Assembly: GCA_016283095.1 (NCBI GenBank)
Contig: JAEEMG010000019.1
Span: 1-64,000, forward strand
DNA from: Paludibacteraceae bacterium
GTDB taxonomy: Bacteria; Bacteroidota; Bacteroidia; Bacteroidales; Paludibacteraceae
DNA: 64,000 nt
Direction of reading: 5' to 3'
Of this stretch, positions 11,000 through 34,111 are shown in pieces. Both the position numbers and the translations under genes were made by a program. A model generated the notes under the pieces. The model did no database searches. It worked only from the letters and a program-made list of their open reading frames with translations, and was not told the origin of the DNA. Position 1 is the first letter of the stretch; each line of letters starts with the position of its first letter.

Positions 11000-12712
11000 A
11001 TGTCTGACTTTAAAATCAAACGCGCTGATGGCAAAACGCGCGAAATTTCGGGTTACATCTATAGTGCCCCAAACGCAAATGTAAAAAACTTCCGTTCCAC
11101 ACGATATAGTGCGAGCCAACTTCCTAAAAAGGTCGATTTGCGTCCCTACATGACCAGAGTCGAAGACCAAGGTCAAGTAGGCAGCTGTACTGCCAATGCC
11201 GTCGCCGGTGCTTACGAATATCTCGTGAAAAAGAACCAAGGGTTGGAAGACGACTACGACGTAAGCCGCCTGTTCATCTACTACGGTGCACGTGCAAAAC
11301 AAGGCAATGAGAAGAAAGATTCAGGCTCGGCAATTTCCGATGCGGTCTCTCTTCTGGAGGAGACGGGAGCCTGTTCGGAATACACATGGCCATATTCCGA
11401 GCAAAAATCTGTGGTGTTTGCCAAACCTAGTAAAGAAGCTTTTGAAGAGGCAAGCAGACACAAAATCACCGAAGCTGAAATCATTCCGACCACACTCCAG
11501 GCGTGGAAGAGCGCTTTGGCTGAAGGATTCCCTATCATCTTCGGAATATCACTATTCAAATCATTTGACAATCAGAGGAAAAGAGGTTTCGTGCCCAACC
11601 CCTCGTCGACAGAAGCCGCACGTGGTTCACATAGCAGCCACGCAATGCTCTGCGTAGGTTATTCAGACGTCGACAGGGTCTTCATCGTCCGCAATTCATG
11701 GGGAGACAGATGGGGAGACAACGGATATTGCTACATTTCTTACGACTATATCATGAACAAGAAGTATAATCATGGCGACACATGGATCATTCGTGATGCG
11801 GAAGAGGTGGAAGGCAACGAAGACTCCTGGTTTGACGATGACGAGTCGGTATTGACCGATCTTAACGAAGAGTTCGCAAACATGGACGAGGAGACATGGG
11901 AAGAGATGAACGAAAGAATGGGAGATTATCCGTTTCCGCACCGTCTCGGACTACTTTTCACAGCCGCCGCAATTGCGGATGGCGAGTTTTCAGAAGAGGA
12001 GCAGGAAGTGGCGATCGAGCATATAGGCAACGCATTGGAATTGTTTGGCTATGACGATCTTGATCCTGAAGGAGTGTTTGAATATGCGTCTGAGGTAATT
12101 GATGAAAACGAGAATATACTTAACGAGACAGTCGAACTTTTTGGTGAATATTTGTCGGGAGAAGCACTTGCCACAATCCTGCAGCAGATGCGAGAGATTG
12201 CAGGTGCGGATGAACTAGACGAAGAGGAATCCGACTTCATCGACACTGTGGAATCAGCTTGGATGGGAGGCGACGACGATGAAGACGAGGATGAGGAAGA
12301 ATGTGATTGTGATGACGACGAGGAAAGCGAGTGCGACGAAGATGAAGAAGACGAAGATCTTGATGAGTACGAGACCTTCACCGTCACTTTAGGAGGACCG
12401 AATTCTGATGAGCCGTCATACCTTTCCATCTGCGATCAAGAAGCCTATTCGGAAGATGACGACGACGATTGTCTTGAGAATGTGGAAATCGTCTTTACAG
12501 GAACTAAATTCGTGACCGCTAGCAAAGCGAAAAACGACATTGTGGCCGAGAATGAGAACGAAGCAGAGATTGAGACATTGAAGAAAGGATGCGACTATTC
12601 ATTCGTCACCAACACAGGATATGAAGGACGTATCATTGTGGAAGACGGTGAGATGGATGGCAAAGACGCAGAGATAGAAGTCACTGTATACTATTGCGAA
12701 TCAGATGATTAA
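11000..12712 (+). CDS. Cytosolic papain-like (C1) cysteine protease with TerB-like and acidic domains
   Basis: 570 aa with no signal peptide (MSDFKIKRADGK). The N-terminal 280 residues are a C1-family peptidase with all catalytic elements: the oxyanion Gln and Cys in EDQGQVGSCTANA (Cys63), His in SHAMLCVGY (about 214) and Asn in VRNSWGDRWGDNGY (about 231). Residues about 310-400 resemble a TerB-like helical domain (GLLFTAAAIADGEFSEEEQ). A run of Asp/Glu with interspersed Cys follows (about 420-460), then a roughly 110-residue C-terminal domain I do not recognise (begins FTVTLGGPNSDEPSYLS). Most bacterial C1 peptidases are exported, so the cytosolic layout is odd. The substrate is unknown. Confidence 0.8.
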   Translation: MSDFKIKRADGKTREISGYIYSAPNANVKNFRSTRYSASQLPKKVDLRPYMTRVEDQGQVGSCTANAVAGAYEYLVKKNQGLEDDYDVSRLFIYYGARAKQGNEKKDSGSAISDAVSLLEETGACSEYTWPYSEQKSVVFAKPSKEAFEEASRHKITEAEIIPTTLQAWKSALAEGFPIIFGISLFKSFDNQRKRGFVPNPSSTEAARGSHSSHAMLCVGYSDVDRVFIVRNSWGDRWGDNGYCYISYDYIMNKKYNHGDTWIIRDAEEVEGNEDSWFDDDESVLTDLNEEFANMDEETWEEMNERMGDYPFPHRLGLLFTAAAIADGEFSEEEQEVAIEHIGNALELFGYDDLDPEGVFEYASEVIDENENILNETVELFGEYLSGEALATILQQMREIAGADELDEEESDFIDTVESAWMGGDDDEDEDEEECDCDDDEESECDEDEEDEDLDEYETFTVTLGGPNSDEPSYLSICDQEAYSEDDDDDCLENVEIVFTGTKFVTASKAKNDIVAENENEAEIETLKKGCDYSFVTNTGYEGRIIVEDGEMDGKDAEIEVTVYYCESDD

Positions 12713-12756
12713 ACAACAGATTATATAAAGAAAATCTGTCGTCAAAACCAACTATT

Positions 12757-12798
12757 CCCCAATCAGCTCCATCTTGAAAAAGGTGGGGCTGATTGGGT
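12757..12798 (+). terminator. Long hairpin downstream of the protease gene, probable terminator
   Basis: A stem of about 19 bp (CCCAATCAGC..CCATCTT against AAGGTGGGGCTGATTGGG, some G-T pairs) with a GAAA loop. It is followed by TATATATAT rather than a clean T run, so efficiency is uncertain. Confidence 0.55.
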
Positions 12799-12958
12799 AT
12801 ATATATCTACGAAAAATCTTATAGATTTAGTTTTTTTATTAATTTTGAGATGTTTTTTGTACTCTACAGAGCATACGTCTGGAAATGAGACATATGACGA
12901 TGGAGAATAAAGTGGAAAATACTTAATATATAATATAAATTAATTTGGATTTTTAGTC

Positions 12959-14788
12959 ATGTTTAATTTTATGAAAAAAGACACGAAAAAGAAAGCTATA
13001 AAAAAAGAAGAAAAAAACATTGTTAATAGTATAGTTGCTGCAGATTTGAAAAATAAGATATTGGAATATGTCAAAAAAGAAAACACTGATTACGCAATAA
13101 TGGTGAATGGGGATTGGGGAAGCGGAAAAACTTATTTCATAGAGAAAGAACTTAAAATTGAATCATCTAATTTATATAGAATAAGTCTATTTGGAATTGA
13201 GTCTATTCATGAGTTAACGAGAGAGATTGAAAAAAAAGTATTTCCTAATTATTATATCACGAAGGATTTTTTTGGTGTTTTATCAGGAACATTAAAAATA
13301 GATAAAAAATTTGATATTAATTCCGAAACGATAAATAATATAGTTCAGAAAGTATCTGATTATTTATCATATAAAAACAAAGTAATTGTATTTGATGATA
13401 TTGAAAGGCATTCTCCTAAATTGCATATGTCTGAAATATTAGGATTTGTCAATAATTTAGTAGAGAATCTATCTGCTAAAGTTATTGTTCTTTGTAATAG
13501 AAATCAGATTACAAAGGATGCAGAAACAATGGCATTGTATCAGGAAAAATCAATAAGAGAATGTTATTATCTTAAGCCAGATATTAATAAGGCATATAAT
13601 AGTTTAGTTATAGAAAACATAACAGACAAAGAAATCCAAGATATTTTCCTTAAAAACACAAAGGATTTCATGGCACCATTTATCATCTCAAATTGTGTTA
13701 ATATAAGGACATTAAAATACGTTTTTGAAAAATTTATTGAACTTCGTGATGCTATTGACAATAACGAGATAAAGAACAATGAGTTCATACTACAAATATT
13801 ATTTATTTCATTATCCGTATTTACAATAGAATATAAAAAAGGAAAAGACATTTCTTTTGCAGACATCGTTCCATCAAAACACAGATATTCAAACTTCAAT
13901 TTGTATATAAGCAACGATTCAAATAAAGAAAACAAGTTATCAGATAAATATAGACCACTCATTCGATATATCGAACCAATTAAAAGTATTGAAAATTTAG
14001 TAATTAATGGTGTTTTTGACAAAGAAGAATTTAATCAAAGATTGTTAGTTTATTGTCCATCTAGTGGAAAGACAAACGACGCCATGGTTAATTTATCGTT
14101 GTTATTTCATCCAACTGAAATTGATGACGATAAATTTTTTAACGTTATAGATAAAGTAAAACAATATATATCTGAAGGTAAATATTCCTTGAAAGAAATC
14201 TTTGAGATTTCGATGTGTTTTGATGATTTTGATTATTATAAATTATCTGGATTTAGTTATTCTTACGATTCTAATTTAAATATTAAAATATATAATGCGG
14301 CAGAAAAAGAACTTCAAAAATTTAATAAACATGACATAACGTCTGTACAATTATTTCTTAATGATTCATTCAAAAGCTCTAAAACTTTCACTAAGAATTT
14401 AGTGAGCCATATTAAAAATGAAGTTGAAAAAATAAAAAGCAATTTTGAGCAAAAAGAAATAGAATATTTTCTTAACCTTGTAAGAGACAATTCAACTGCA
14501 TCATTATCAGCTTACATGGAAGACATAAATAACCGTTTAATTATTACTTATCCAAAGTTCGATGTCAATGAGTTTTGCGAGAGTATTTATTCTGCAAATC
14601 AGTCAACACGAAGGGCCTTTGAGTTGGGATGTTATCGTTGGTTCCCAACAAGAATACAAGGAGAGGATACAAAATTCATAAAAAGGAAATTGGAAATAGC
14701 CCAAAACTTTGATCAATATGTGAAGGGACACCAACTTACTCCATCAAATCTAATATTAAAGAATATAATAGCAAGATTAAGATCATAG
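12959..14788 (+). CDS. KAP-type P-loop NTPase, AT-rich and probably acquired
   Basis: 609 aa. Walker A is NGDWGSGKTYF (GSGKT at 54-58) and Walker B is KVIVFDDIERHSP near 143, the pattern of KAP-family and related STAND-like P-loop NTPases, where the NTPase often serves in membrane- or phage-related functions. The C-terminal 400 residues are helical, Lys/Asn/Ile-rich and match no domain I know; I see no transmembrane segment. Base composition is far more AT-rich than both neighbours, suggesting horizontal acquisition. It stands alone, with a terminator after it and no partner gene on its strand. A defence role is possible but unproven. Confidence 0.7.
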   Translation: MFNFMKKDTKKKAIKKEEKNIVNSIVAADLKNKILEYVKKENTDYAIMVNGDWGSGKTYFIEKELKIESSNLYRISLFGIESIHELTREIEKKVFPNYYITKDFFGVLSGTLKIDKKFDINSETINNIVQKVSDYLSYKNKVIVFDDIERHSPKLHMSEILGFVNNLVENLSAKVIVLCNRNQITKDAETMALYQEKSIRECYYLKPDINKAYNSLVIENITDKEIQDIFLKNTKDFMAPFIISNCVNIRTLKYVFEKFIELRDAIDNNEIKNNEFILQILFISLSVFTIEYKKGKDISFADIVPSKHRYSNFNLYISNDSNKENKLSDKYRPLIRYIEPIKSIENLVINGVFDKEEFNQRLLVYCPSSGKTNDAMVNLSLLFHPTEIDDDKFFNVIDKVKQYISEGKYSLKEIFEISMCFDDFDYYKLSGFSYSYDSNLNIKIYNAAEKELQKFNKHDITSVQLFLNDSFKSSKTFTKNLVSHIKNEVEKIKSNFEQKEIEYFLNLVRDNSTASLSAYMEDINNRLIITYPKFDVNEFCESIYSANQSTRRAFELGCYRWFPTRIQGEDTKFIKRKLEIAQNFDQYVKGHQLTPSNLILKNIIARLRS

Positions 14789-14808
14789 AATATCCAAAAA
14801 CTTATCCC

Positions 14809-14834
14809 AAAGCATCCCCATCCGGATGCTTTTG
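14809..14834 (+). terminator. Terminator of the KAP NTPase gene
   Basis: A 9-bp stem AAAGCATCC / GGATGCTTT with a 6-nt loop, followed by TTGTTATT. Confidence 0.7.
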
Positions 14835-14977
14835 TTATTCATGGAAATTAAAGACAAATTGCTTCGTAAAATCATTGTTTTTTAGATAATGTTCCACTCC
14901 ATTCATGGCTGCTGTTTTCTTTTGCTCCATCCAATTGCATGAATGTGTGAGATTATCCATACAAGCCAAAAATTTGC

Positions 14978-14985
14978 TATATTTG
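14978..14985 (+). promoter_or_regulatory. -7 box for the first AAA/PD-(D/E)XK gene
   Basis: TATATTTG, 22 nt before the ATG at 15008; no clear -33 partner. Confidence 0.45.
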
Positions 14986-15007
14986 CATTATAAACATACA
15001 GAAAACG

Positions 15008-16555
15008 ATGAAATACCCGATTGGCATACAGACATTTGAAAAGATTATCACAGGGGGCTATACCTATGTGGATAAAACGGACTTGGTGTATAAACTGGTC
15101 TCGTCTGGAGATTATTATTTTCTGAGCCGTCCTCGTCGTTTCGGGAAAAGTCTTCTCACCACAACCATAGAAGCTTATTTTCAAGGCCGAAAAGACCTGT
15201 TCAAAGGTCTCGCCATGGAAAAACTTGAAAAAGATTGGATAGAATACCCTGTGTTCCATATTGACTTCTCAAGCGCTGACTATACCAATCCTACAACGCT
15301 GACTAACAGACTGAACACCTACTTGTCGCAATGGGAAAAAATATATGGGAAAAACGATGTGGAAATCGCTATCGGAGATCGTTTATATGGTGTTGTTAGC
15401 CGAGCAAAAGAAAAAACTGGCAAACATGTGGTCATTCTGGTAGACGAGTACGACAAACCGTTGACTGACGCTATCGGCATACCAGAAATTCAAGATGCAA
15501 ACAGAGCTTTGCTTCAAGAGGTATATGGCATCATGAAACGTGCTGACCGTCACATCCGTTTCGCTTTCCTGACCGGAGTCACCCGCTATGGAAAACTGGG
15601 AATATTCAGTGCGGCAAACAATCCTAGGGACATTTCCATGAGCAACGACTATGCTACCATTTGTGGAATAACAGAGACGGAATTGCACAGTTATTTTGAC
15701 AATGAAATCAAACAGTTTGCAGAAAAACAGAAAATCGATGAAACATCCATGTATAATATGCTTAAACATAAATATGATGGATATCATTTCTGTGAACACT
15801 CTGAAGATGTGTATAATCCATTCAGCGTACTAAACGCACTCTCCGACAAGCAGTTGTCTAACTATTGGTTTGCCACTGGCACCCCGACCTATCTGGTCAG
15901 AATGCTGCAAAAAAGCGACATCGACATCCCTGATTTTGAGGATGATCTGATGGCCACCGAAGAAATGCTTGCCACCTTCGGAAATGGAGATAGCAACGTC
16001 ATCGCAGCGTTGTATCAAAGTGGATACCTCACAATAAAAGGATTTCATGACAATTGCTATATACTCGGATTCCCTAACGATGAGGTTTCTGAGGGGTTGA
16101 CTCGTGTACTGATACCAAATTACGTGACTTCCTCTACAAGCGACAGAAAAGATCTCGACATCATCAAGTTGCGCCAACTTATTGACGCTGACAACATAGA
16201 TGGATTCATGACCCAAATGCAAATCATAATGAGCCAGATACCATTCGAAAGCAACAATCAGAAACTGATTGAAGCGAATTTCCGTAACATGCTGTATTTG
16301 ATGATACGAGCCACTGGCCACAAGGTGTCTGTTGAATATCCTGTGTTAGGCGGACGAATCGACGTCTTCTTCGAGACAAAAAAATGTGCATACATCATCG
16401 AATGCAAACGTAATCAATCGGCACAAGAGGCTTTGGATCAAATAGACGAGAAAAGATATGCAGAAAAGATATCCGCTCCAAACAAAATGATTGTGAAAAT
16501 AGGGGCTAACTTCAGCACAAACGAACGAAATCTGACTGAATGGAAGGTGGATTGA
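15008..16555 (+). CDS. AAA-ATPase-like / PD-(D/E)XK nuclease family protein (DUF1703 type), first copy
   Basis: 515 aa. The N-terminal AAA-ATPase-like domain has the family's YVDKTDLVYKL motif and the variant P-loop SRPRRFGKSLL, then VVILVDEYDKPLTDA as Walker B. The C-terminal DUF1703 nuclease-like domain shows GGRIDVFFETKKCAYIIECK, the Asp and Glu-x-Lys of PD-(D/E)XK enzymes. Such proteins occur in many copies in Bacteroidales; function is unknown, with nuclease and defence or mobile roles proposed. A second, divergent member follows at 16889. Repeat copies 3 and 4 lie directly downstream. Confidence 0.88.
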   Translation: MKYPIGIQTFEKIITGGYTYVDKTDLVYKLVSSGDYYFLSRPRRFGKSLLTTTIEAYFQGRKDLFKGLAMEKLEKDWIEYPVFHIDFSSADYTNPTTLTNRLNTYLSQWEKIYGKNDVEIAIGDRLYGVVSRAKEKTGKHVVILVDEYDKPLTDAIGIPEIQDANRALLQEVYGIMKRADRHIRFAFLTGVTRYGKLGIFSAANNPRDISMSNDYATICGITETELHSYFDNEIKQFAEKQKIDETSMYNMLKHKYDGYHFCEHSEDVYNPFSVLNALSDKQLSNYWFATGTPTYLVRMLQKSDIDIPDFEDDLMATEEMLATFGNGDSNVIAALYQSGYLTIKGFHDNCYILGFPNDEVSEGLTRVLIPNYVTSSTSDRKDLDIIKLRQLIDADNIDGFMTQMQIIMSQIPFESNNQKLIEANFRNMLYLMIRATGHKVSVEYPVLGGRIDVFFETKKCAYIIECKRNQSAQEALDQIDEKRYAEKISAPNKMIVKIGANFSTNERNLTEWKVD

Positions 16556-16593
16556 CTAAACAAATATATCACCGATTTAAATAGAAGTGTGTA

Positions 16594-16678
16594 GATGCGT
16601 CTGGAAGACGCTATCTCCGTAACCCCGTACATACACAGCGGAGTGTAGTATGTGCGGGGGATGCGAGGATAGAGAGCC
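16594..16678. repeat. Structured dispersed repeat, copy 3
   Basis: Same unit as copies 1 and 2. In the inner stem of the long hairpin CGC / GCG has become CAC / GTG, two changes that keep all pairs. Like copy 1 it is followed by GGATAGAGAGCC. Confidence 0.8.
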
Positions 16679-16685
16679 AACAACA

Positions 16686-16716
16686 ATGCGTCTGGAAGAC
16701 GCTATCTCCATAACCA
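16686..16716. repeat. Structured dispersed repeat, copy 4 (truncated)
   Basis: Only the first hairpin and the TATCTCCATAACC segment remain; the long hairpin is missing. It lies 25 nt before the dcu relic. Confidence 0.7.
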
Positions 16717-16740
16717 CACATAGTTATATGCGCGACGCCA

Positions 16741-16788
16741 TTAATAAATCATCATCGCCAGTGCGTAACCCACAATACATGATACCGT
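16741..16788 (-). pseudogene. Relic of a dcu-type transporter gene, last 15 codons
   Basis: The minus strand reads TVSCIVGYALAMMIY then TAA. The intact dcu gene ends TVSCIVGYALTMVIY. The two 48-nt ends match at 41 positions, and five of the seven differences are synonymous, so both ends evolved as coding sequence before this one was cut off. Similarity fades upstream of it. The stretch 16789-16834 shows nothing recognisable. Confidence 0.75.
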
Positions 16789-16834
16789 CAATATTCTGAC
16801 TTACGTTCCTCAGTATTCATGTCATCCCCAATAA

Positions 16835-16866
16835 TTTGTCCAAGAAATTGAAAATATCTATCTTTG
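16835..16866 (+). promoter_or_regulatory. Bacteroidota promoter, TTTG-N20-TATCTTTG
   Basis: TTTG 16835-16838 and TATCTTTG 16859-16866 with 20 bp between: a full consensus match, 22 nt before the ATG at 16889. Confidence 0.75.
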
Positions 16867-16888
16867 TGATAATTAAAATGTAGAAGTT

Positions 16889-18475
16889 ATGGGCTTATAT
16901 CTGAATCCGAATGCTGATGCGTTTCAAATGGGATTGAACAATGAAATATATGTGGACAAGTCTCTTATTCTGTCTGAGCTTAATAAGTTGGTAGGCAGTC
17001 AAGGAAATTTTGTCTGCATGTCCCGTCCACGCCGTTTCGGGAAGAGCATGGTTGGCAACATGATATCAGCCTACTACTCAAAAGGTTGCGACACTCGTGA
17101 GACGTTCAGCCAGATGAAGCTCGGACAAGTGCCTGATTATGATAAATATCTGAACAAAATCAATGTCATCAAACTGGATCTGAACGGATGGTATCAGAGA
17201 GCGATACAAATGAATCGAATAGAATCTCTGTTGACTGATATCCACGAGACTTTGGCAAATGAATTCAGATCTGCTTTCCCAAATTTGACATTCAACAAGG
17301 GAGTGACATTGGATCAGTGTATTTTGAATGTATATGCCAACATCGGTGAGAAATTTGTCATAATCATCGATGAATACGACGTTTTGGTGCGTGAACAGGT
17401 TTCACAATCTCTTTTCAATAACTATCTGAGCTTCCTTAACGGACTTTTCAAGGATACTACCCTCCGCCCTGCCATAGCTCTCGCCTACATCACCGGCATC
17501 ATTCCAATAGTCAGGGATAAGGTACAGTCGAAACTGAATGAGTTCACCGAATACACGATGATCCGTCCTCGTCAATTCGCAGGCATGATTGGATTTACAG
17601 AGGAGGATGTGAAAGATTTGTGTGAAAAATATGACATGGATTATGACGAGTGCCTAAGATGGTACGACGGATATAAGATGTCCGACACCATACGTGTTTG
17701 CAATCCGCTATCGGTAGTCAGTTCCATCCTCGACCGTGAGTTTGACAGTTACTGGTCGACCACAGGTTCATTTGAGGTGCTCCGCGACTATATCCTCATG
17801 GATTTCGAGGGCATCCGCCAAGACGTGATCAAAATGATTTCAGGAGGAAGTGTGCCAGTAAACGTTCTGAAATTCCAAAACACTCTTGAGAGTGTCAACT
17901 CTAAAGACAATGTTTTCACATATCTTATCCATCTGGGCTATCTGGCTTATAATCGAGCAGATAAGACATGTTATATTCCCAACGAGGAGGTCCGTATCGA
18001 GTGGGTCAACTCCATAGAAGATTCCGCTGATTACAAAAAGGTAATGGCTGTGGTCAACGCTTCCAAGAAACTTCTCGATGCCACTGTCGACGGCAATGAG
18101 GAGGCTGTGGCAAAGGCTCTTGATGCCGCCCATACTGAGGTGACTAATCCGTTGACCTACAATGATGAGCATTGTTTCCAGAGTGCGATCTGTCTGGCTT
18201 ACTTTTTCGCCAACACCCGCTACACTCTCGTCAAGGAGCTGCCTACTGGCAAAGGCTACGCAGACTTGGTATTAATTCCATACCTGCCTAACATCCCGGC
18301 TATGGTTATAGAGCTGAAGCACAACAAAAGTGCGGATAGTGCGTTGCGACAGATAAAAGAAAAAAATTATTGTCAGGCTCTCAACCAATACAAAGGCGAT
18401 CTACTTTTTGTCGGCATCAGTTATGATGAGAAGACTAAGGAGCATCAGTGCAAGATAGAACGTTTGGTGAACTAA
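16889..18475 (+). CDS. AAA-ATPase-like / PD-(D/E)XK nuclease family protein, second copy
   Basis: 528 aa with its own consensus promoter. P-loop variant MSRPRRFGKSMV at about 46-57, Walker B FVIIIDEYDVLV near 152, and a C-terminal nuclease-like domain with GKGYADLVLIPYLPNIPAMV followed by the Glu-x-Lys of VIELKHNKS. It is the same family as the gene at 15008 but clearly diverged, so not a recent duplicate. It lies between the relic and the intact 3' end of dcu genes, as if inserted there or left after a deletion between tandem dcu copies. Confidence 0.87.
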   Translation: MGLYLNPNADAFQMGLNNEIYVDKSLILSELNKLVGSQGNFVCMSRPRRFGKSMVGNMISAYYSKGCDTRETFSQMKLGQVPDYDKYLNKINVIKLDLNGWYQRAIQMNRIESLLTDIHETLANEFRSAFPNLTFNKGVTLDQCILNVYANIGEKFVIIIDEYDVLVREQVSQSLFNNYLSFLNGLFKDTTLRPAIALAYITGIIPIVRDKVQSKLNEFTEYTMIRPRQFAGMIGFTEEDVKDLCEKYDMDYDECLRWYDGYKMSDTIRVCNPLSVVSSILDREFDSYWSTTGSFEVLRDYILMDFEGIRQDVIKMISGGSVPVNVLKFQNTLESVNSKDNVFTYLIHLGYLAYNRADKTCYIPNEEVRIEWVNSIEDSADYKKVMAVVNASKKLLDATVDGNEEAVAKALDAAHTEVTNPLTYNDEHCFQSAICLAYFFANTRYTLVKELPTGKGYADLVLIPYLPNIPAMVIELKHNKSADSALRQIKEKNYCQALNQYKGDLLFVGISYDEKTKEHQCKIERLVN

Positions 18476-18513
18476 TAAGGATAGATGGTCATTCCACCGT
18501 CGCCAACATAATT

Positions 18514-18547
18514 AAAAAGCCGTGACTGAGTTTCAGTCACGGCTTTC
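18514..18547. terminator. Bidirectional terminator between AAA gene and dcu
   Basis: Stem GCCGTGACTGA / TCAGTCACGGC flanked by AAAAA and TTT, between convergent genes ending at 18475 and 18565. Its core resembles the hairpin at 20033-20066. Confidence 0.85.
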
Positions 18548-18564
18548 ATATTAAAATGTCTCAT

Positions 18565-19929
18565 TTAATAAATCACCATCGTCAACGCATATCCCACAAT
18601 ACATGACACCGTCACACTGATTAGTCCAGGCATCATGAATGAGTGGTTTAACAGATATTTTCCGATGACAGTTGTGCCAGAACGGTCGAAATTCACCGTA
18701 GCAATATCCGACGGATAATTAGGGATGAAGAAATATCCGTAGACTGACGGAAGTAGTCCAAGCAACACTGGTCCAGGAATGCCCAGAGAATATGCGAGCG
18801 GAAGCATCGACACGACCACCGCACCCTGCGAATTAATAAGCACTGACACTGCAAAGAAAACGAGTGCTATCGCCCATGGATATTGCTCCACTATGCTGCC
18901 CAACGCCTCTTTCATCTCTCCCAAATAATTTCCGAAATAGGTGTCGGCAAGCCATGCGATTCCATATATGGCGACGACGGCGACCATTCCCGACTGCCAA
19001 ACTGAACCCTGCATCGCCTTTTTAGGTTCTGCTTTTGCGACGAGAATCATCAACGCAGCTGCAGCAATCATCACAATCTGGATAATGATGTTCATTCCAA
19101 TCGGAACCATCTTCTCTACCCCATCCTTCACAACTGGGAATGATGGACGAATGTCATGACCTAGGATTTGGCATACAGAGAACAAAACGATCAAAGCGAG
19201 AGCACCCATGAAGATGTATACGCTCCATTTAGCCTCTTTGCTGATCTCTTTGTCGAGCAATGTGGCATTGTTGCCATACATGTATTTGTAGGTCTCAGGA
19301 TCCTTGCAGCGTGCCTGAAATTGAGGATCTTTGTCAAGGTCCAATCCTCGTTTGTAAGACGCTGCTGCTGCGCACATCAATCCACACAGACAAGCCGGAA
19401 TCGTGATGGCGATCACTTCAAGGTTGCTGATCTCAAAACCAGCCGCATGGGAGATAGTCACAAACGACGCTACAGCCGCTGCGATAGGAGAACATGTTAT
19501 ACCAACCTGACTCGCGATAGAAGCCACACCACAAGGTCGCTCCGGACGAATTCCTTGTTTCAACGAGATATCACAAATGATCGGCATCAAAGTATAGACG
19601 ACGTGACCGGTTCCAACCATCACTGTCAGGAAGAACGTACAGATAGGAGCAAGGAATGTGATGCTGTTTGGACGGCTTCGCAAAACTTTTTCCGCCAATT
19701 GAATCATCCAGTCCATACCTCCAGCAGCTTGCAACATACCCGCGCAAGTGACAGCCGCAATAATTATATAGATCACATCTGTAGGAGGAGTTCCAGGTTT
19801 TAGATTAAAGCCCAAAACAAGAATAGCCAGGCCTATACCCGAAATAGCTCCTAGTGCCAAAGAGCCGTATCTGGAGCCCACATATAGAGCTATCAATACG
19901 ACCAATAGTTGAAGAATCATTAATATCAT
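18565..19929 (-). CDS. dcuB: Anaerobic C4-dicarboxylate transporter, Dcu family
   Basis: 454 aa (452 if the second Met at 19920 is used; E. coli DcuA/DcuB are 433-446). Highly hydrophobic throughout, with the family's GMLQAAGGMDWMI, VMVGTGHVVYTLMPII and GITCSPIAAAVASF segments. Dcu carriers in the inner membrane exchange fumarate, malate or aspartate for succinate during fumarate respiration, a central energy route in Bacteroidales. The A/B subtype is a guess. Single gene with its own terminator. Confidence 0.9.
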   Translation of the reverse strand: MILMILQLLVVLIALYVGSRYGSLALGAISGIGLAILVLGFNLKPGTPPTDVIYIIIAAVTCAGMLQAAGGMDWMIQLAEKVLRSRPNSITFLAPICTFFLTVMVGTGHVVYTLMPIICDISLKQGIRPERPCGVASIASQVGITCSPIAAAVASFVTISHAAGFEISNLEVIAITIPACLCGLMCAAAASYKRGLDLDKDPQFQARCKDPETYKYMYGNNATLLDKEISKEAKWSVYIFMGALALIVLFSVCQILGHDIRPSFPVVKDGVEKMVPIGMNIIIQIVMIAAAALMILVAKAEPKKAMQGSVWQSGMVAVVAIYGIAWLADTYFGNYLGEMKEALGSIVEQYPWAIALVFFAVSVLINSQGAVVVSMLPLAYSLGIPGPVLLGLLPSVYGYFFIPNYPSDIATVNFDRSGTTVIGKYLLNHSFMMPGLISVTVSCIVGYALTMVIY

Positions 19930-31249: not shown

Positions 31250-32587
31250 ATGATCGAATTTATTTTATTATTCGCCACAATAATATTGATTCCTTTTCTT
31301 GTCGTAAAGATAACTAACTGGATGGAGTTTCTATTACACCAGTGGTCAGCGAAGAGAGAAATGGAATACGACTCGCTATGCATAAAACTGGTTGTCTTCA
31401 CTGCTTATTGGAGTGGCAAAGACAGTATTGAAGAAGAAACTTTACACGAACTGAAAAATTTAGTTTCATTGAGAGTCTATAAAAGTGAGGAAGAGAAAAC
31501 AAAACAATTAGAAAAGATAACAGAAGAGATAAACGAGTATTTCAAAACTGCAGCTGAAAAAGTCATCGATAAATCCGACATAATACGGTTGTGCAATAAA
31601 ATTGTCGAATGCAACTTTGATAAAAATTTGCATTTAAGTAAAGCCCTATCCACAGCGGCATTCCTAACAGACAAATTCAATCCTGTACTTCCTGAGATTT
31701 TTGACAAACTAAGAATATACCCTTGGATGATAAAAGATCTTCATAAAAATCATACAAAAAAACACAAAAAAAAGAATTCCCGTAAATCCGACAAAAAAGA
31801 GAATACGTCAAATAACACCACCAACAAAAAAGAAGAAAAGAATAAAAGGGAAAAGAAGACGGAATACAATAATAATCAGCAAAACTATAAAGACAATTCA
31901 TTTGAGACCCTGACACTTGAACTATTGGTGGAGGCTATGAAAGTGGACCGGTCGAAAATGGTGTGTGAGCTCGACGTCATAAAGGCATTCATTCTTAAAC
32001 ATGACAAGAAGAATTTCCAGAAAAGAGTGCTGGAGGTGAAAAAATACCTGAGCTATGAATATATAGAAGTGCATGTGGAAGAAATATGCACCAATATCTA
32101 CAAACAATTCCGTCAAGACAATCAAAAAAGAGAGGATATATTAAAACTTTTATTTGAACTCATATATGCAGACGAGACTTGTACCAACACAGAATATAAT
32201 TTCCTGAAAAAGGTAGCAGAAAGACTGAAAGTTTCAAAGTCCGCCTTTGATTTCATGAGGATGAAATACGAAAACAGAAAAAATAATAGCAAGCAGAAAA
32301 GCAAACAACAGAGCAATAGACAAAACGGTAATTCTCAGGAGGATAATAATCAAAGCCATTCACAGCCTAAATACACAAGTGAATTGGAGAAAGCTTATGC
32401 CGCACTCGGAATCTCCCAAGACGCCACTGACAAAGAGCTTAGTGCAACCTGGAGAAACTTGATGCGCGTCTACCATCCGGATTTAATGGAAAAAAAAGGA
32501 GCGGAAGCCATCAAAAAAGCGACTGCCAAATGTCAAGAAATCAACAAAGCTTTTGAAATCATAAAGGCTAGCAGAGGAATGAGATGA
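31250..32587 (+). CDS. Membrane-anchored J-domain protein with TerB-like region, copy 1
   Basis: 445 aa. One N-terminal transmembrane segment (about 3-20), a helical region (about 40-165) unlike known domains, and a Lys/Asn-rich low-complexity linker (about 170-215). A TerB/DjlA-like helical domain follows (LTLELLVEAMKVDRSKMVCELDVI), then a Gln/Asn/Ser linker and a C-terminal J domain with intact HPD (VYHPDLMEK). The layout recalls DjlA (TM-TerB-J), a DnaK co-chaperone; a DnaK partner role is inferred. The 3' quarter is almost identical to the next gene. Confidence 0.78.
   Translation: MIEFILLFATIILIPFLVVKITNWMEFLLHQWSAKREMEYDSLCIKLVVFTAYWSGKDSIEEETLHELKNLVSLRVYKSEEEKTKQLEKITEEINEYFKTAAEKVIDKSDIIRLCNKIVECNFDKNLHLSKALSTAAFLTDKFNPVLPEIFDKLRIYPWMIKDLHKNHTKKHKKKNSRKSDKKENTSNNTTNKKEEKNKREKKTEYNNNQQNYKDNSFETLTLELLVEAMKVDRSKMVCELDVIKAFILKHDKKNFQKRVLEVKKYLSYEYIEVHVEEICTNIYKQFRQDNQKREDILKLLFELIYADETCTNTEYNFLKKVAERLKVSKSAFDFMRMKYENRKNNSKQKSKQQSNRQNGNSQEDNNQSHSQPKYTSELEKAYAALGISQDATDKELSATWRNLMRVYHPDLMEKKGAEAIKKATAKCQEINKAFEIIKASRGMR
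32230..32587 (+). repeat. Near-identical tract shared by the two J-protein genes (copy 1)
   Basis: About 358 nt matching 33755-34111. It opens with a run of roughly 95 identical bases through the Asn/Lys/Gln linker, then only scattered differences to the stop. Upstream the genes diverge strongly. Confidence 0.9.
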
Positions 32588-32680: not shown

Positions 32681-34111
32681 ATGAACCTACACAAAACATT
32701 CATAGTATGGTTGCCATGCACAATTATTATAATGTTACTGACATTAGATCAAAAAAATATAGTGCTTATTATATTACTTAGTTTGATGTTAGTCGGAGAA
32801 TTGGCATATTTATTGGGTTATTATAGTGGAAAAATCATTGAAGAAGACAACAAAATAAAAATCAAATCAAATAAAAAATCAGAAAAAGAGTCAGACAAAA
32901 AAACTGAAGAAGACGACGACAATGATGATTTTCTGTTCTGTTGCATCAAACTGATGGTATATACCGCTAAATACTGTGGATGCAATGGTATAGACGATAT
33001 AACAAGAGTCAAGATCAGAAAGTTTATAATAAAAAATGAGCCACAAAACCTCTCTACAAGATTGAAAGAGCTTGACAACTTAGCCATCCATATATCTGAC
33101 AATGAAGTTTCCAATTTCGACATCTTTTTATTATGTGAAATGATAAAGAGAAAACTTAACAGCAACAACAACCCATCATGGATATTTAGTAATCGGAACT
33201 TAATTTTAGATATTCTATTTTCAGTAGTATATCAGTCCAAGAATTCCCCATTTATTCTAGAATACATTTCAAAAATCATTGGAGACGAATATTTGTTTGA
33301 AACTAAAAGAAAAGAATACGAAAGAAAATATTCAAAAAAAGCAGATACGAACAACGAGAACAACAAAAATGATAAAGATGGAAATAACAACAAAAAGAAT
33401 AAGAATAAAGACACTAAAAGGCAATTTGTCACCCTAACACTTGAATTGCTAGCGGAGGCTATGAAAGTGGACCGGTCAAAAATGGTGTGTGAACTCGACG
33501 TCATAAAGTCCTTTATCATGAAATATGACAAGGATAATTTCCAGGAGAGATTGTTGGAGGTGAAAAAATACCTGAGCATTGAATACACCGAAGTGAACGT
33601 GGAAGGTACATGCTCAAGAATCAACAAACAATTCCGTCAAAACTACCAGAAAAGAGAGGAAACCTTAAAAATACTGGTTGATCTCATCTATGCCGACGAC
33701 ACCTGCACCAACGCAGAATATAATTTTCTGAAAAAGGTGGCTGAAAGATTGAATGTTTCAAAGTCCGCCTTTGATTTCATGAGGATGAAATACGAAAACA
33801 GAAAAAATAATAGCAAGCAGAAAAGCAAACAACAGAGCAATAGACAAAACGATAATTCTCAGGAAGATGAGAATCAAAGCAATTCACAGCCTAAATACAC
33901 AAGTGAATTGGAGAAAGCTTATGCCGCACTCGGAATCTCCCAAGACGCCACTGACAAAGAGCTTAGTGCAACCTGGAGAAACCTGATGCGCGTCAACCAT
34001 CCGGATTTAATGGAAAAACAGGGAGCAGAAGCAATCAGAAAAGCTACTGCCAAATGTCAGGAAATCAACAAAGCTTTTGAAATCATAAAGGCTAGCAGAG
34101 GAATGAGATGA
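32681..34111 (+). CDS. Membrane-anchored J-domain protein with TerB-like region, copy 2
   Basis: 476 aa, paralogue of the preceding gene. Two hydrophobic N-terminal segments (about 6-22 and 28-47), a divergent helical region that still shares the CIKLMVYTAKYCG motif (copy 1 CIKLVVFTAYWSG), a Lys/Asp/Asn linker, the TerB-like domain (about 75% like copy 1 by eye) and a J domain with HPD (VNHPDLMEK). The gap of 93 nt and the shared strand suggest co-expression, perhaps as a pair on the membrane. Confidence 0.78.
   Translation: MNLHKTFIVWLPCTIIIMLLTLDQKNIVLIILLSLMLVGELAYLLGYYSGKIIEEDNKIKIKSNKKSEKESDKKTEEDDDNDDFLFCCIKLMVYTAKYCGCNGIDDITRVKIRKFIIKNEPQNLSTRLKELDNLAIHISDNEVSNFDIFLLCEMIKRKLNSNNNPSWIFSNRNLILDILFSVVYQSKNSPFILEYISKIIGDEYLFETKRKEYERKYSKKADTNNENNKNDKDGNNNKKNKNKDTKRQFVTLTLELLAEAMKVDRSKMVCELDVIKSFIMKYDKDNFQERLLEVKKYLSIEYTEVNVEGTCSRINKQFRQNYQKREETLKILVDLIYADDTCTNAEYNFLKKVAERLNVSKSAFDFMRMKYENRKNNSKQKSKQQSNRQNDNSQEDENQSNSQPKYTSELEKAYAALGISQDATDKELSATWRNLMRVNHPDLMEKQGAEAIRKATAKCQEINKAFEIIKASRGMR
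33755..34111 (+). repeat. Near-identical tract shared by the two J-protein genes (copy 2)
   Basis: Partner of 32230-32587; covers the linker and the J domain. Confidence 0.9.

Follow-up and report, generated by a model that had tools for sequence, protein, structure and literature searches.

The gene at positions 11000–12712 of the window (the whole 64,000-nucleotide stretch analysed here, from a gut-type bacterium) is best explained, at a probability that we put at about 0.4, as coding for a cytosolic xylellain-type cysteine peptidase that would be regulated in cis by the C-terminal half of the protein. What leads us to this reading is the strict conservation, in relatives from three phyla, of the catalytic residues and of two acidic pairs in a TerB-like domain, the hyperacidic tail and the lack of a visible signal peptide in most of these proteins, their grouping in one clade, the purifying selection acting on both domains and the TerB-type structures that head the list of matches to the predicted model. 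Papain-type proteases are mainly familiar as lysosomal or extracellular enzymes; a clade from three phyla in which one stays intracellular, joined to a TerB-like domain and an acidic tail, would provide a self-contained system for studying regulated cytosolic proteolysis and for finding out what TerB domains sense. New here are the single clade of C1-TerB/acid-tail peptidases and a C-terminal domain (CTD) of Paludibacteraceae that is also found on an HExxH protein and on lipoproteins.

Gene and domain organisation

The open reading frame starts with ATG and codes for 570 aa, laid out as a C1A peptidase domain (41–268), a TerB-like domain (284–422), an acidic tract and a beta-rich CTD (457–570), the last corresponding to the extra C-terminal domain of the original prediction. 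An 18-bp hairpin lies 3' of the gene (z −7.5 for a 118-base stretch), and the gene is apparently transcribed alone. The features are as follows.

11000..12712, + strand: whole gene, 570 aa, strong hairpin after the stop
11000..11119, + strand: N-terminal segment, residues 1–40, with the family motif DG at 10–11 and GY at 18–19 (12 C1-TerB proteins)
11120..11803, + strand: C1A (xylellain-type) peptidase domain, residues 41–268 (PF00112 and 3ois matches)
11168..11170, + strand: oxyanion-hole Gln57 (alignment)
11186..11188, + strand: catalytic Cys63 (alignment)
11639..11641, + strand: catalytic His214 (alignment)
11693..11695, + strand: catalytic Asn232 in the NSWG motif (alignment)
11849..12265, + strand: TerB-like helical domain, residues 284–422 (PF05099 match of the region; 2h5n and 2ou3 first)
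11978..12001, + strand: first invariant acidic pair, D327-x6-E334 (12/12)
12209..12229, + strand: second invariant acidic pair, D404-x5-E410 (12/12)
12269..12367, + strand: hyperacidic tract, residues 424–456, with three Cys (D/E counts)
12368..12709, + strand: CTD, residues 457–570, common to a metalloprotease-like protein and family lipoproteins (locus reading)
12758..12797, + strand: 18-bp hairpin, a possible terminator with no long T run, absent from the terminator scan list

The ATG is separated from an in-frame stop upstream by four codons only and, as judged from the sequence, the protein has no hydrophobic N-terminal stretch; a Sec signal is therefore not visible, as had been claimed before. 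The N-terminal residues D10, G11, G18 and Y19 are invariant in all 12 aligned C1-TerB proteins. The net charge (K+R minus D+E) is +2 for residues 1–268 and −97 for residues 269–570. Both the C1 and the TerB-like domains are under purifying selection: against four close orthologues dN/dS is 0.02–0.03 for C1, 0.04–0.06 for TerB and 0.05–0.20 for the CTD, synonymous sites being mostly saturated in the comparison with more distant orthologues.

The peptidase domain

Residues 41–249 match Peptidase_C1 (PF00112) at E 6.5e-19 and 69.3 bits, against a Pfam cut-off of 20.7. The best PDB match of the protein is xylellain of Xylella fastidiosa (3ois; E 7.5e-45 over residues 12–266), and we class the domain as xylellain-type, as this alignment, starting from residue 12, takes in part of the N-terminal segment. 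In xylellain-type peptidases an N-terminal segment occludes the active site. Xylellain and our protein have the same type of catalytic domain; xylellain, however, is a single-domain protein, whereas ours has several domains. The expectation of an intact papain-family active site held, since Q57, C63, H214 and N232 are all present, as is W234, and all 12 aligned C1-TerB proteins, which come from three phyla, keep the catalytic Q, C, H and N. The C1A domain reaches a VIA Z of 9.0 on a low-confidence model, the full-length AlphaFold2 prediction (10 sequences) having a mean pLDDT of 50 and most of its protease part lying below 50.

PMC12090721 proposes plant proteins as targets of the xylellain-like peptidases that plant pathogens carry, and it states that the substrate of xylellain is unknown. 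Sections of PMC10380794 report xylellain-type peptidases in viruses and describe signal peptides in extracellular prokaryotic C1A peptidases and none in the intracellular ones, which agrees with the cytosolic location proposed here.

The TerB-like domain

The TerB profile (PF05099) matches residues 320–418 of the whole protein at E 0.0011 and 19.7 bits and the isolated 157-aa region at E 9.4e-5 and 23.1 bits, both scores being under the curated cut-off of 24.4, and the domain is therefore filed here as TerB-like only. At E 0.1 a TerB match is obtained for seven of the 12 C1-TerB members and none for the other five, and all clade members with a TerB score shown are under the Pfam cut-off. These scores, together with the outcome of Foldseek given below, count against the gated cytosolic reading.

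In the AlphaFold2 model of residues 271–570 (nine sequences) the stretch 291–420 is all-helical, with block pLDDT values of 84–93. VIA-align of this model places 2h5n (PG1108) first (Z 8.3, rmsd 3.6, 107 residues aligned) and 2ou3 second (Z 6.9, rmsd 5.3, 117 aligned; the next row scores 5.5), with the tool's caution that a Z of 7–8 among helical bundles can reflect chance or a common arrangement only. The TerB-like region of the full-length model gives the same two entries, 2h5n and 2ou3, with Z 8.4 and 6.9. By its title 2ou3 is a tellurite resistance protein of COG3793, i.e., TerB-type, and 2h5n is of that type as well. Foldseek alone found no match for the TerB-CTD model at E <=0.001 (best E 0.23, to another fold). 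A PDB sequence search with the TerB profile returned no TerB entry, the best hit being a designed helical barrel (E 0.015); this search is a weak one for TerB, because the TerB region of a J-protein from the window retrieved no TerB entry either.

Taking the profile scores and the predicted structure together, residues 284–422 are probably TerB-like, in line with the original prediction. The likeness to TerB/COG3793 proteins lies in the helical fold match (Z 6.9–8.4), while the differences are the Pfam score below cut-off, the fusion to a peptidase and the failure to find TerD in the genome. PMC7824862 describes TerB as possibly the domain with which Ter stress systems, found in jumbo phages as well, sense signals.

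A link between this domain and two J-proteins of the same window had been suggested, and it was not supported. Both proteins do carry TerB and DnaJ domains: they are adjacent paralogues (31250–32587 and 32681–34111) with TerB matches at E 1.3e-9 and 4.7e-10 and a C-terminal DnaJ domain, the C-terminal part of both resembling DjlA below the DjlA cut-off. Kinship of our TerB-like domain with that of one J-protein was rejected, as a thin six-row profile showed no similarity (hhalign probability 0.3%).

Relatives and phylogeny

Some match to the protease is present in 24 of 61 genomes (its own and 60 relatives), and the whole protein in six (G000, G001, G002, G003, G006 and G011), which amounts to 5/9 genomes of the genus plus one from a different genus. 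Of the four congeners that lack the gene, G005 is 91% complete and the remaining three only 64–78%. A pattern scan of species genomes, a method that detects close relatives only, gave nine loci: four at 98–99% identity, two at 80–82%, Candidatus Physcocola equi at 65%, a Spirochaetaceae MAG (L038) at 46% over residues 6–425 and a Saprospiraceae MAG at 46% over 2–277. Some records appear under two names (L031=G002, L032=G006, L033=G003, L034=G001, L035=G067 and L037=G093=G570).

Among plasmids, 41 records match, and one of the 25 matches listed, from Deinococcus sp. KNUC1210, extends into TerB; eight phage records match, none past query residue 264. The Deinococcus protein (WP_239052112.1) is 46.7% identical over residues 4–424 and has the same C1 domain, TerB-like domain and hyperacidic tail with no visible signal peptide, but its tail is built of DEEDI repeats and it has no CTD. 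With this protein as the query, 39 of 247 Spirochaetota genomes match at E 1e-15, and seven of the 247, including that of L038, align through TerB at 40–52% identity to the query. In the window's own phylum 77 of 395 genomes match at E 1e-10, and none aligns past query residue 301, the window's own gene aside. The C1-TerB design is thus found in three phyla, its representatives outside the window's family being 44–50% identical to our protein in the 12-protein alignment.

A tree built from 29 C1 domains places the 12 C1-TerB proteins in one group with L039, L070 and L075 (support 100/99); 14 short xylellain-type rows lie outside it. By these sequences the C1-TerB/acid-tail peptidases form one clade. 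The 29 rows were chosen by hand (L104, L105, L111–L116 and L118 among them) and xylellain itself is not in the tree; the protein set behind it omits identical proteins and the loci of the window's own gene (L001, L045 and L074). L039, L070 and L075 are acid-tailed relatives with no TerB match, and their place inside the clade speaks against the gated cytosolic reading; on this tree the TerB label takes two changes, either a loss in these three or more than one gain. A signal peptide is visible in only one of the 12 C1-TerB proteins, the lipoprotein-like L038 (LLSSC), whose apparent export is a further point against that reading, while the other 11 have a Met within a few residues of the conserved N-terminal motif.

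The description of this fusion as an unusual design was only partly right. The same fusion occurs in the three phyla, and it is not new, since 'short bacterial C1-terB peptidases' (C1A plus TerB by name, and probably the same group) are named once in the text of PMC10380794 as the source of a transfer to Ascomycota. The main text of that paper, as far as it covers these proteins, gives no fuller description, and its lone use of 'acidic' concerns pH. Passages of PMC8123226 hold nothing on C1-TerB. In searches of one open-access library we found neither acid-tailed C1-TerB peptidases, nor the clade, nor a CTD common to proteases.

The acidic tract and proposed control of the peptidase

The predicted acidic tract is borne out by 27 Asp/Glu among the 37 residues at 421–457, with three Cys within. 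The best 40-residue stretch of the protease holds 28 D/E, that of the next window ORF 17 and those of the other 28 ORFs 13 or fewer (the control set comprises the 30 non-overlapping, ATG-started window ORFs of at least 150 aa). The pLDDT of the blocks at 421–450 is 29–44 in the full-length model and is low in the 271–570 model too. A Cys-based metal site in the tract, also suggested originally, was rejected on the poor conservation of these residues: the most acidic 30 residues contain three Cys in five of 17 proteins (ours and the four closest orthologues), one in L037 and none in 11, two of the latter being without a tract.

A C-terminal 30-residue stretch with at least 19 D/E occurs in 10 of the 12 C1-TerB proteins and is missing from L113 and L115, so that the tail is not essential to the design, and these two members weaken the gated cytosolic reading. 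The tails are unlike in sequence, consisting, for instance, of D/Y runs in L038. The tail would, we suggest, be a disordered polyanion acting as a cation sponge, a docking surface or an autoinhibitor, because its acidity is kept and its sequence is not.

In the mechanism that we propose, the N-terminal segment, the acidic half or both would keep the near-neutral catalytic domain inactive, the two conserved D/E pairs would let the TerB-like domain sense a divalent cation or another stress signal, and the resulting change would free the catalytic domain, or dock it, on a basic or damaged intracellular substrate. In Paludibacteraceae the tail would have been extended by a beta domain that recurs in a metalloprotease-like protein and in lipoproteins. 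Cytosolic activity, sensing, gating and substrate are what we infer here, and that the conserved acidic pairs would sense cations is likewise our inference. Calpains are cytosolic papain-fold proteases with acidic, possibly metal-binding regulatory parts; the analogy concerns the manner of working only, no calpain or EF-hand family being among the Pfam matches of our protein.

The same architecture could belong to a general peptidase for housekeeping or recycling, with TerB and the acidic tail only helping it to fold, stay soluble or oligomerise and no switch involved. The lack of a conserved neighbour across genera, the two tailless members and the repetitive Deinococcus tail, a sign of loose constraint, would all suit such an enzyme, as would the patchy presence of the whole gene within the genus, to be read with the low completeness of most of the genomes that lack it. 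The invariant TerB D/E pairs and the low dN/dS in that domain suggest, however, a specific role, and we consider such an enzyme unlikely.

The C-terminal domain and possible delivery

The CTD is predicted to be beta-rich, with low confidence (block pLDDT 31–66 in the 271–570 model). A PDB search with the CTD profile gave nothing convincing (best E 0.51), and the structural rows obtained from the low-confidence model are weak: 4ei0 (DUF4466, Parabacteroides) at Z 5.2 with 86 residues aligned, and 6r2h (PinO, Porphyromonas) at Z 4.7. The domain is present in 17 of 150 Paludibacteraceae genomes. It is carried by the C1-TerB protein in eight of these, by an HExxH protein in two (G012 and G110) and by other proteins only in six, the CTD-bearing gene of G092 being cut by the contig end; the CTD matches in G123, G110:C124 and G093:C11 were left out of this locus reading. 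The HExxH protein has its own acidic tract and no visible signal peptide, and its Pfam matches to M12-type metallopeptidases are weak and sub-cut-off (best E 0.0034 and 0.0072). In the five of these last six genomes whose loci were read (G004, G013, G068, G069 and G133) the CTD proteins look like lipoproteins, with acidic residues soon after the Cys. Two or three small lipoprotein-like CTD genes also stand in tandem at L043:4041-5647, L056:889-1977 and L058:539-1571, adjoining what we take to be a ychF-like GTPase gene. The CTD is probably a binding or anchoring part.

The CTD of the G012 HExxH protein shares 82% identity with its counterpart on the C1-TerB protein of G093, which belongs to the same genus, and 57% with the window protein's CTD, the G093 and window CTDs being 61% identical to each other. 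This ranking is consistent with the CTD having been copied from one of the two protease genes to the other inside that genus; in BLAST the HExxH and C1-TerB proteins have no other significant likeness beyond the CTD. The tract and the CTD thus end two unrelated protease-like proteins, both with no visible signal peptide, and the CTD occurs in addition in lipoproteins with signal peptides. These observations are consistent with a deployed enzyme, which would be released by lysis or by a route that needs no Sec signal and act on outside proteins, its tail and CTD serving as a delivery or anchoring module; the lipoprotein appearance of L038 and the plant-protein targets proposed for xylellain-like peptidases of plant pathogens (in the part of PMC12090721 concerned) point the same way. 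Spirochaetota, Deinococcus and Saprospiraceae, however, have acid tails but no CTD, which means that the tail did not evolve to serve a route specific to Bacteroidota.

NCBIfam holds models of the Type IX C-terminal sorting domain. The protein has no NCBIfam match up to E 1, and thus no curated domain of this type, which is another point against deployment, and we regard a deployed enzyme as somewhat unlikely. That the tract and the CTD form a portable C-terminal module sending or tethering signal-less papain-type and HExxH proteases to one place, for instance a cell surface that CTD-bearing lipoproteins may occupy, is a proposal that we hold to be quite improbable. If true, the module would be a novel Bacteroidota signal for targeting or secretion, and the presence of the CTD in two protease classes makes the targeting hypothesis directly testable.

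Genomic context

The gene sits after pnp in the window and in L031–L033, the L034 contig starting too close to tell, whereas in other genera it lies elsewhere and among other neighbours. Across the C1-TerB loci there is no common neighbour beyond pairs of near relatives. The stretch from the protease to a transporter gene at 18565 (window 12713–18564) is a variable spot with other gene sets in L031–L034. In the window it contains a KAP NTPase, which is a PADLOC candidate (PDC-S49, E 4.8e-53), and two AAA-ATPase_like/PDDEXK_9 genes.

Such surroundings could be expected of an anti-phage or conflict effector, i.e., a protease toxin unleashed by a TerB sensor. The candidate phage-defence gene just downstream and the exchange of gene sets at this spot would fit it, as would the possible signal-sensing role of TerB in Ter stress systems and their presence in jumbo phages (according to the section of PMC7824862 on these systems). 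The protease itself, however, matches no PADLOC family (0 families at E 0.01), and within the window's genus the gene stays while its downstream neighbours change, other genera having it in other places. We thus consider an effector of this kind very improbable, and the defence context originally suggested for the domain did not hold up, the neighbours varying between the genera examined and TerD not being found in the genome. The protease was rejected as a defence system, and membership in a Ter system was ruled out, TerD (PF02342) having no match in the own genome (G000) and being present in one of 13 genomes. A congener in which no C1-TerB gene was found, G004 (a draft genome, 77% complete), has three TerD matches in a row (L136 and L137, on G004:C237). 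The preferred reading remains that of a cytosolic peptidase controlled by its own C-terminal half.

Another C1 peptidase domain was met in a three-gene set at L132:7049-15045 (G005) and L133:348-8590 (G570), which comprises a vWA-like protein with an N-terminal signal, a Tubulin_2 protein (E 8e-52 in G005) and a protein of ~1140–1170 aa with a central C1 peptidase domain and apparent membrane segments. At the far end of the window (43616–63958, − strand) lies an open frame of 6780 codons, apparently coding for a giant repetitive surface protein.
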